Source: Pseudobdellovibrio exovorus JSS (GTDB lineage: Bacteria; Bdellovibrionota; Bdellovibrionia; Bdellovibrionales; Bdellovibrionaceae). Taken from it: DNA of 64,000 bases. Shown piece after piece: positions 1,057 through 34,262 of this stretch; the first letter of the stretch is position 1, and each line of letters begins with the position of its first letter. The notes beneath the pieces are model-generated. The model searched no databases. It saw nothing but the letters and a program-made list of their open reading frames with translations, and was not told where the DNA came from. The position numbers and the translations under genes are program-made. The stretch is from contig NC_020813.1 in assembly GCF_000348725.1 (NCBI RefSeq), positions 496,001-560,000 on the forward strand, given 5' to 3'.

Positions 1057-1085
1057 TATATTTCCGGATAAGGTACGGCCTACCT
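1057..1085 (+). repeat. REP-like repeat, solo copy beside the nuclease gene
   Basis: A 29-base sequence identical to 33633-33661. Its last 26 bases match the reverse complement of 32904-32929. It contains the palindrome AGGTA-CGGCC-TACCT. On the minus strand it begins directly after the TAA of the S1/P1-type nuclease gene. The other two copies flank the REP-associated transposase 31 kb away, so this looks like a non-autonomous copy. Confidence 0.85.
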
Positions 1086-31872: not shown

Positions 31873-32505
31873 ATGTTATCAGAAAAGATCTTTGTAATTG
31901 CCCATTATGCCGACCAAGCGGTGCTGATTTTGTTGGTATTAATGAGTGTGGTTTCTGTAGGAATGATCTTTGAAAGATTTGTGGCCTTAAAAAAAGTGTC
32001 TCAAGACAGTGAAGCAATTCGCGCTAAAATTCGTCAGGCTTTGCACGATGGCAACTTAGCGGGTTTTGAAGACCTAGCTCGCGACACCTCTTCTTTAGAA
32101 GGTCGCGCGGCTTCGCAGGCTCTAAGACATTTAAACGAGACCGGATTAGCGGGCTTTGAAGAGGTTTTTAATACGTTCATGTTGAATGAAAAACCGGCGC
32201 TAGAAAGATATTTAGCTCCATTGGCGACGATTGCTTCCAATGCGCCATTTATCGGTCTTTTGGGAACAGTTTTAGGTATTATGAAAGCCTTCAACGATTT
32301 AGCTCAAGCTTCAGATGCAGGACAGCAGACAGTGATGGCAGGTATTTCGATTGCGCTTGTCGCGACGGCCGCGGGTCTTTTCGTGGCGATTCCTGCTGGT
32401 ATTTTCTATAACTACTACACGCGTAAAGTAAAAGGCATCTACACGAATTTAGAAAGCGTGAAAGAGCTAGGCCTAGCGTATGCTAAGAAGAAAGGTTTGA
32501 ACTAA
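31873..32505 (+). CDS. exbB: ExbB/TolQ/MotA-family proton channel protein
   Basis: Inner-membrane subunit of a proton-driven ExbB-ExbD motor, 210 residues. Three membrane helices are visible: VLILLVLMSVVSVGMIF, LATIASNAPFIGLLGTVLGIM and ISIALVATAAGLFVAIPAGIF. The APFIGLLGTVLGIMKAF stretch is the family hallmark. AGAGGAG precedes ATG by 6 bases. The stop overlaps exbD (TAATG). TolQ is the main alternative; there are no tolA/tolB/pal genes beside it, so an ExbB role or an unassigned motor is preferred. Confidence 0.9.
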   Translation: MLSEKIFVIAHYADQAVLILLVLMSVVSVGMIFERFVALKKVSQDSEAIRAKIRQALHDGNLAGFEDLARDTSSLEGRAASQALRHLNETGLAGFEEVFNTFMLNEKPALERYLAPLATIASNAPFIGLLGTVLGIMKAFNDLAQASDAGQQTVMAGISIALVATAAGLFVAIPAGIFYNYYTRKVKGIYTNLESVKELGLAYAKKKGLN

Positions 32506-32909
32506 TGGGGTTTAAATCGGATTCTCAAGACGATGTTCTGGCCGAGATTAACGTCGTTCCCTTAGTTGATATCATCTTAGTGGTACTGATCATTTTTATG
32601 GTCACCGCGCCAATGATTATGAATTCCTCTTTGAATGTGAACTTACCGAAAGCGGGGGCGGGTGACGCTACGGCTCCTAGTAAGTTAAACATTCTGATCG
32701 CCAGCGATGGGCGTCTGAGTCTTGATGGAAAAATCGTCGACGAGATGCAAATTCGCCAAGTGGCGGAAGAGGAAGTAAAAAAGAACCCAGAGGTTCAGGC
32801 GATTATCTCGGCTGACCGCGAAGTGCACCACGGGCGCGTGGTCTCTATCCTCGACACAGTCAAACTAGCTGGCGTAAAAAAATTCGCGATCAGCATCGAT
32901 AAAAGGTAG
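32505..32909 (+). CDS. exbD: ExbD/TolR-family protein
   Basis: Partner of the ExbB-like protein, 134 residues with one N-terminal helix (LVDIILVVLIIFMVTAPMI) carrying the essential Asp in VDIIL, and a periplasmic domain (KLNILIASDGRLSLDGKIV; VQAIISADREVHHGRVV). INVVPLVDI is a textbook ExbD/TolR motif. The TAG stop lies inside a REP-like repeat (32904-32929), so the last two residues (Lys-Arg) are encoded at or in the repeat boundary. A tonB-like third gene would be expected nearby but is not recognisable; a transposase gene follows instead. Confidence 0.9.
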   Translation: MGFKSDSQDDVLAEINVVPLVDIILVVLIIFMVTAPMIMNSSLNVNLPKAGAGDATAPSKLNILIASDGRLSLDGKIVDEMQIRQVAEEEVKKNPEVQAIISADREVHHGRVVSILDTVKLAGVKKFAISIDKR

Positions 32910-32929
32910 GCCGTACCTTATCCGGAAAT
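32904..32929 (-). repeat. REP-like repeat, left copy
   Basis: 26 bases whose reverse complement equals 33636-33661 and 1060-1085. The plus strand reads AGGTA-GGCCG-TACCT followed by TATCCGGAAAT-type sequence, giving a 5-bp stem and the GTAG tetranucleotide typical of REP elements. It contains the exbD stop codon (32907-32909). Confidence 0.85.
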
Positions 32930-33568
32930 TTAGAGCAGTGTCATCTCTAATATATGAGAGTTTCGGTCTTTATCGAGGCCGAAGTGGAAATGTTGTTTTC
33001 TTAGAGCATTTCGGATATCGACTTTGAGTTCTTCAGATGGATAACCTTGATTTAACCACTGCAAGTGGCTGTAAACATCTGAAAATAGAGCTTCATCATT
33101 TTCCAATGGAATTATGGTGTGAGCCTGCCCGAGCAACCCATAAAGACTCGAATAGGGATACTCTTCGACACGATAGCAAAGTCCGGCCTCGACCGGATTT
33201 CGGTAAACATATTTGTAAGCATGCAGATAATACAGCGGTGACTTCAGCAAAGACCAATAGTACGGACCTCCATAGATGTGATTGATGCGACCGGATTCAA
33301 AACCGATCACGCGACTGGTTTCGCGCATCAGATAGTTCATCGCCTGACTTAAGTTGCCATGCGGGGTTTGGATGATTAAATGAAAATGATTATTCATCAG
33401 AACAAAGCTATGAATACGCACACCATAGGAATGATGTATAAAAAAGAGATACTTCGAGTAAATATCCCAAATTGTTTCCATCGGTAACGAGAACCACTCT
33501 TTATTCAGACAGCGTGCGGTCACGTGATAAGGCCAGTCGTTATGAGCTAAAAATTTTTTTCTCGGCAT
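32930..33568 (-). CDS. REP-associated tyrosine transposase (RAYT, Y1/HUH family)
   Basis: 212-residue single-strand DNA transposase of the TnpA-REP type. The HUH motif is FVLMNNHFHLIIQTP near residue 65. The preceding DWPYHVTARCLNKEWF strand and the MNYLMRETSRVIGFESGR helix are typical. HAYKYVYRNPVEAGLC carries the presumed catalytic Tyr just before NPVEAG. IS200/IS605 enzymes are shorter (about 150), so the C-terminal extension supports RAYT rather than a full IS. ATG 33568 is preferred over TTG 33589. The enzyme would nick and possibly mobilise the 26-base palindromic repeats flanking it; it appears intact. Confidence 0.9.
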   Translation of the reverse strand: MPRKKFLAHNDWPYHVTARCLNKEWFSLPMETIWDIYSKYLFFIHHSYGVRIHSFVLMNNHFHLIIQTPHGNLSQAMNYLMRETSRVIGFESGRINHIYGGPYYWSLLKSPLYYLHAYKYVYRNPVEAGLCYRVEEYPYSSLYGLLGQAHTIIPLENDEALFSDVYSHLQWLNQGYPSEELKVDIRNALRKQHFHFGLDKDRNSHILEMTLL

Positions 33569-33632
33569 AAGAAAAGGTCTTCTAAGCAAAGCATGCCAAG
33601 TCTTAGGTCTGTATTAAATGCATAAGGACGTT

Positions 33633-33661
33633 TATATTTCCGGATAAGGTACGGCCTACCT
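33633..33661 (+). repeat. REP-like repeat, right copy
   Basis: 29 bases identical to 1057-1085 and, over 26 bases, inverted relative to 32904-32929. It lies upstream of the transposase gene, opposite in orientation to the left copy, and contains AGGTA-CGGCC-TACCT. Confidence 0.85.
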
Positions 33662-33719: not shown

Positions 33720-34262
33720 GTGAAGCAGTTCTTTATCGAATACAAACAGATACTCTTTTTTTTCGTACTTCTAACGGGAGTAACTGGATATACACTTTTT
33801 GAATCCGATCTTCATCAGGTCCAAGCCGCCTCACCTCAGTTGAAATCTTTGTATGGTCAGAATGTCGCACATGCGGCCGAGCTAACTCCAAGTCATTTTC
33901 CTACACGTCAGCCCTCATCAGTCGGAAGTGAAAACACGACAGGTATAAAAAAGCTTGAAAGTGTTTTAGATAAAAAATTCCTGTGTGCTGAAAAAACGGC
34001 TCATAAGGCAGAGCAAGTTCGCGAGCAAATGGTGATGATTCGCTTTGATCTTTGCCAGAAAAATTTAAAAGGCATGGCCAAAGAGCTACACTTTGAAAAC
34101 CAAAGTAATGGGTTTAAAGCTCAAATTTTCGTTGTTGAAAATGGAAGCTACAAAACAGATTTCATTCAATTAAATCAAGGTATCAACAAACTTAAGCTTG
34201 AAGTTGTCCTAAAAGATGGGCAAAAGCTTGAGGAATCATTGGAAATTTTATCTGGTTCTTAA
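33720..34262 (+). CDS. Membrane-anchored periplasmic protein of unknown function
   Basis: Not recognised. 180 residues from a GTG start: one N-terminal helix (ILFFFVLLTGVTGYTLF), a polar linker, then a periplasmic-type domain. That domain has two Cys (KKFLCAEKTA, RFDLCQKNLKG) and beta-rich segments (KAQIFVVENGSYKTDFIQL, GINKLKLEVVLKDGQKL). The C-terminal part could be an Ig-like or carbohydrate-type sandwich, but that is only a guess. It lies 58 bases beyond the transposase repeat, in the same direction as exbB-exbD. It may have followed exbD directly before the transposase unit arrived. Confidence 0.65.
   Translation: MKQFFIEYKQILFFFVLLTGVTGYTLFESDLHQVQAASPQLKSLYGQNVAHAAELTPSHFPTRQPSSVGSENTTGIKKLESVLDKKFLCAEKTAHKAEQVREQMVMIRFDLCQKNLKGMAKELHFENQSNGFKAQIFVVENGSYKTDFIQLNQGINKLKLEVVLKDGQKLEESLEILSGS

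Follow-up and report, generated by a model that had tools for sequence, protein, structure and literature searches.

Results

The window, that is, the whole stretch of DNA analysed here, comprises 64,000 nt of the genome of Pseudobdellovibrio exovorus JSS (NC_020813.1, positions 496,001 to 560,000). Between exbD and the gene downstream of it lies a REPtron, composed of a gene for a RAYT (REP-associated tyrosine transposase) and two flanking REPs in inverted orientation, and a third, solo REP is found next to a nuclease gene (Table 1). In relatives, exbD and the downstream gene are adjacent, with a gap of 70-143 nt and no REPtron. The three repeats are identical over 26 bases, including the two ends of the RAYT unit (26/26, inverted), in agreement with an earlier note on this DNA, and shuffled versions of the window gave no match to the 21-base core of the repeat. 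The note had assigned positions 1057-1085 to the solo copy, three bases of which turned out to be flank, and had rightly placed this copy directly after the nuclease stop codon and the exbD stop codon inside the left copy. It had also called the repeat palindromic. The 26-mer is an incomplete palindrome that contains a hairpin of 6-7 bp, (T)AAGGTA-GGCCG-TACCTT(A), whose folding as DNA is weak (approximately -3 to -4 kcal/mol, with z ranging from about 0 to -2 according to the flanks).

Table 1. Features of the REPtron locus and of the solo repeat, in window positions
Feature	Position	Strand	Remarks
Solo REP	1060-1085	+	Same sequence as right REP; read on the minus strand, directly after the nuclease stop TAA (1088-1086), TAA|AGGTAGG
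exbD (PF02472)	32505-32909	+	C-terminus ...DKR-TAG, in relatives ...DKK-TAA; stop position the same
Whole REPtron, 758 bp	32904-33661		Inserted between exbD and the downstream gene (33720-34262)
Left REP/TIR	32904-32929	-	Plus-strand sequence AGGTAGGCCGTACCTTATCCGGAAAT; GTAG at 32906-32909 provides the exbD stop TAG (32907-32909)
RAYT gene, 212 aa	32930-33568	-	Apparently intact; TAA stop adjoins the inner end of the left REP
Right REP/TIR	33636-33661	+	ATTTCCGGATAAGGTACGGCCTACCT; identical to the left REP in inverted orientation; located upstream of the RAYT start

The reading frame between the inverted repeats is open and could begin at TTG 33589 (219 aa) or at ATG 33568 (212 aa); the latter is most likely the start, since this methionine is common to 12 of 12 aligned relatives. 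The protein matches Pfam Y1_Tnp above the cut-off and the NCBIfam model REP_Tyr_transpos (NF047646) with E = 7e-16 and 58.4 bits, below that model's cut-off of 80. Its sole sequence match in the PDB is 4er8 (TnpA-REP), which is also the best fold match of the predicted structure (pLDDT 87; TMt 0.71), followed by the IS608, ISDra2 and IS200 transposases. The HUH motif (N60-H61-F62-H63) precedes tyrosines Y118, Y120 and Y122 and an NPV triplet (N124-P125-V126); in the alignment with relatives the three tyrosines and H61 are invariant, H63 is nearly so, and the YxYxNPV motif is present. The profile, sequence, fold and motif evidence thus supports the note's identification of the transposase as a Y1 HUH enzyme of the RAYT kind. 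The gene is single copy, the remaining homologues in the genome being only 49% and 36% identical. The more diverged of these lies at genome positions 2322793-2323188, and inverted ends were not found there.

The earlier note had proposed a REP family of this lineage, to be abandoned if the genome held no further copies or if the repeats were conserved at orthologous sites in strains lacking the transposase. The genome (2,657,893 bp, one contig) holds 20 copies at 16 loci, hereafter family A, and the genus mates examined carry none at the same genes. A reversed control sequence had no genomic copies at 20- or 26-base length. GTAGGCCGTACC is invariant in all 20 copies, within a nearly invariant block that runs from an A at -2 to about +26 and is followed by a looser tail, ATATA and then about NRCGAYTTGA. 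No copy lies inside a gene beyond the gene's last codons, and the exact 20-mer had no match in a collection of 84,980 species from which its own record was left out. Family A has the GTAG tag beside a hairpin, the length of 20-60 bp and the extragenic location that characterize GTAG REPs, but not their high copy number, often above 100 per genome. Unlike REPINs, for which an inverted doublet is the usual replicative unit, it forms back-to-back doublets at only two of the 16 loci (203090/203118 and 2592576/2592604). Like a TIRtron/TIRYT, the system has long terminal inverted repeats on both sides of a RAYT-like gene, and TIR copies dispersed elsewhere. One inverted pair flanks the RAYT gene and another (2601071/2601817) flanks an orphan reading frame of 157 aa. 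This second unit places 772 bp between inverted REPs (2601071-2601842), about the size of the REPtron; its reading frame has no match among 59 relatives, and its flanking genes are apparently neighbours in genome G008, where the insert is absent. It is possibly a RAYT-less, REP-bracketed cargo cassette.

The genome contains a second family, B, of 29 copies of (TA)GGTGCCAGGCCCTGTTTACGG, which is unrelated to family A and flanks a second RAYT with 26/26 identical ends. The REPtron is single copy per family. In family B inverted doublets are commoner than in family A, and the predicted hairpin is again weak. The family-B REPtron lies at 2518226-2519025, and one of its ends provides the TAG stop of a neighbouring 457-aa gene. 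Genus mates have other variants of the repeat, as in G006, with 11 copies in which GTAC replaces GTAG. Across the order, RAYTs are flanked by long inverted repeats, mostly starting AAGGTRC. The GTAG tag mentioned in the note applies to family A only, the sister families bearing GTAC or GTGC. The RAYT closest to that of the window, from G008 (64% identity), is associated with GGTACGCCGTACC, one base off the family-A core. In a RAYT tree, GTGCC, GTACC and GTA[C/G]G repeats fall largely into separate groups. A Mantel test relating the identities of the RAYTs to those of the repeats gave a weak correlation (r = 0.31; 181 of 5000 permutations as high) for 23 proteins, one of them mis-framed. The co-occurrence of repeat core and RAYT clade across the order also fits the note's proposal.

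The preference for gene ends suggested in the note is really a preference for stop codons. At 14 of the 16 family-A loci the GTAG end lies on the stop codon or within about 5 nt of it, and at each of these 14 it points towards the gene's 3′-end; of the other two loci, one is a doublet and one a copy situated just past a terminator. The junction reads TAA|GG in atpE, pgm, hyp203 and pnp, TGA|GG in pilZ and rmt, TAA|AGG in a histone-like gene and the nuclease gene, and TAA|AAATG in asnS. In exbD, serS, coaE and the genes for an M16 peptidase and a DNA-binding protein, the stop is the TAG of the tag itself. Nine copies are at offset 0 or +1 and one at +4, with none from +5 to +70. For a random copy, the expectation in a 12-nt window is about 0.6%, an estimate for 2600 genes which, with individual genome stretches, forms the basis of our gene-end statistics. 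In family B, 18 of 20 copies fall between -1 and +6, 12 of them at -1, where they make TA|G. The register differs between families: 0 for A, -1 for B and +2 for the Bdellovibrio families. No longer fixed target motif was seen beyond a W-R-A preceding the tag. Stops carry a smaller share of the solo copies in Bdellovibrio-type genomes, between about a quarter and 40%, so the rule is a strong preference and not an absolute one. One solo REP of the P. exovorus genome (1472272-1472311) spans the stop of one gene to the start codon of the next gene in the same direction and may affect coupled translation.

Orthologues of 13 family-A genes were compared in up to five genus mates each, and the repeat was absent from all the orthologous gene ends examined. 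For 11 of the 13 genes, one or more relatives have the stop in the same codon position; of the others, serS is one codon shorter and coaE is too divergent. The family-B genes tested end within 0-2 codons of their orthologues, and for a third family, in genome G050, a nucleotide-level empty site with the same stop was found in six relatives. At this last locus (751500-752700) two tandem copies of the element, spaced by about 52 bp, stand directly 3′ of the stop, and TAATC after the first copy resembles the ancestral stop context of the relatives. The orthologues show the copies to be insertions at pre-existing stops and not gene truncations. The idea that stop adjacency merely reflects truncation by a stop-carrying element was rejected because orthologues indicate a loss of 0-2 codons, with one exception, a copy in another genome that truncated several codons.

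Other candidate interpretations were also discarded. Family-A REPs are not transcription terminators, since the native terminators lie 3′ of them (atpE, pilZ, nuc, hyp203), and repeat pairs 200 bp apart are not MITEs, since no similarity to RAYT exists between the paired copies. The copies of the atpE/pgm pair look like separate insertions, one at each of two convergent stops. At the stops of serS (four loci) and of a nifU-like gene (two loci), different repeat families occupy the same stop in different genomes; this recurrence is about at chance level by a rough estimate and was set aside as evidence.

Whole REPtrons obey the same stop rule as solo REPs. Among 62 RAYT loci with inverted ends in named Bdellovibrionota genomes, 34 REPtrons place one or both ends between -6 and +6 of the stop of a neighbouring gene, 13 of them both. 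The ends peak at -1 (12), 0 (10) and +1 (7), only single ends being found from +15 to +150. At the same loci, 1.7% of control GGT sites and 3-8% of motif-matched sites (TAGGT, TAAGGT, TGAGGT and TAAAAGGT) were near stops.

Discussion

Twenty copies, a RAYT of its own and genus mates devoid of the repeat at the same genes indicate that this is a lineage-specific REP/RAYT system. We consider, with a probability of about 0.8, that the element is a REPtron (RAYT plus two cognate REP ends) together with the REPs spread by that RAYT, inserted at stops. The copies are inserted sequences with empty sites in relatives; the stop position is conserved, the orientation is fixed, and whole REPtrons follow the same rule. 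By analogy with TnpA-REP, RAYT would bind the hairpin beside a G-G-T-R tag in single-stranded DNA, cut it and rejoin it. The whole REPtron, like the solo REPs and the back-to-back REPINs, has inserted tag end first, on the coding strand, at stops or within a few bases of them, and the outer bases either adjoin the old stop (TAA|GG, TGA|GG) or rebuild one, as AGG-TAG, as TA|G (family B) or as T|AA (Bdellovibrio families). RAYT itself probably does the inserting, presumably favouring T-R-A or A-rich single-stranded sites slightly, while insertions by which genes are lengthened, truncated or deregulated would be strongly selected against. A mild effect on host translation termination is possible.

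How the copies come to be at stops may be explained in several ways. The first, that REPs land at random and survive only at gene ends through purifying selection, is an explanation we hold as a real but tentative possibility. It fits the empty gene interiors and the sharp left edge of the distribution (losses in this genome amount to 0-2 codons at most), and purifying selection does account for absence inside genes, but not readily for the register or the single orientation: clustering at 0/+1 is a poor match for the even spread up to the terminator that it predicts. Register and orientation would be accounted for by a preference for single-stranded W-R-A sites of the coding strand, or else by a role in termination.

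A second explanation, which we regard as somewhat doubtful, is active targeting, whereby the RAYT machinery inserts preferentially at stop codons of the coding strand, for example because departure of the ribosomes from the transcript leaves the non-template strand single-stranded there, or through pairing of the flanking TRA, as a guide, with the TTA of the element. The family-specific register of a single nucleotide, the fixed orientation and the sharp fall in offsets past +6 argue for it, as does the lengthening of the family-A hairpin to TAAGGTA/TACCTTA by a preceding TAA or TGA. Against this, most copies lie elsewhere in some genomes, three bases make too short a guide to single out stops, and we know of no mechanism by which a DNA transposase senses stop codons. 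That the RAYT elements of Bdellovibrionota, REPtrons included, are stop-codon-directed transposons, which insert preferentially at stops on the coding strand with tips that restore the stop and for which every gene end is a safe landing site, is likewise a speculative generalization.

Positive selection for position, by which a hairpin at the stop would act on translation termination, ribosome stalling or mRNA decay, seems unlikely. The REPs do precede the native terminator, and in E. coli a REP lying no more than 15 nt from a stop causes ribosomes to stall and reduces translation (cited in PMC12306157). Among the host genes, however, are atpE, serS and coaE, which are single copy, look essential and share no obvious regulation; relatives manage without the repeat, and several families have weak hairpins. 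Finally, that the element is an ordinary IS200/IS605 insertion sequence, the repeats nearby being unrelated to it, is highly improbable and was refuted as formulated, since, despite the common Y1 transposase fold, the IS200 model scores 19.6 bits against a cut-off of 55, the transposase is single copy, solo ends are dispersed without it and the inverted ends are identical over 26 bp.

The spread of REPs and their choice of site are an open question, and filled and empty sites at identified genes, several independent families and REPtrons with both ends on stops provide a clear, testable insertion rule. If targeting is at work, stop codons would be a new class of safe harbour for transposons; if selection is, the rule points to a function at translation termination. 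TnpA-REP cleaves single-stranded REP DNA at CT, guided by the tag beside the hairpin, and the 2021 study of this enzyme described work on the dissemination pathway as in progress (PMC8266576). Neither REP/RAYT families in Bdellovibrio nor a near single-nucleotide stop register common to solo REPs and whole REPtrons was found described in the open-access literature.

The system resembles the RAYT/TnpA-REP elements with GTAG REPs and the REPtrons of E. coli, Pseudomonas, Stenotrophomonas and Marinomonas (PMC2817692, PMC8266576) in its single-copy HUH and tyrosine transposase between inverted REPs, the GTAG of family A, dispersed repeats outside genes, species-specific pairing of enzyme with repeat and the 4er8 fold. 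Those systems have hundreds of copies, whereas only 20-29 are found here, with a short weak hairpin, identical 26-bp ends, a near-exact stop register and, in most sister families, GTAC or GTGC tags. The TIRYT/TIRtron of Di Nocera 2013 (PMC3733652) likewise has a RAYT-like gene between long inverted repeats, with moderately abundant solo copies and inverted pairs. That paper already describes REPs downstream of genes, GTAG REPs giving TAG stops and RAYTs between long inverted repeats; in a term search of it, Bdellovibrio was not found, nor was a stop register beyond the remark that GTAG REPs often give TAG. The TIRtron motif given there, GGGGWSAS, was not seen here, where the tags are GGTAG, GGTAC or GGTGC. 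The REPINs of P. fluorescens SBW25 (PMC3116915) share the back-to-back inverted doublets, and are reported to be random in extragenic space, whereas family A consists mostly of singlets and the copies here are not randomly placed. The E. coli REPs located within 15 nt of stops (cited in PMC12306157) are similar in lying close downstream of stops with a possible effect on translation, and in a 150-kb sample of E. coli 3 of 20 GTAG ends were at -4 to +3 of stops; in contrast to them, the copies described here adjoin or form the stop in a fixed register.
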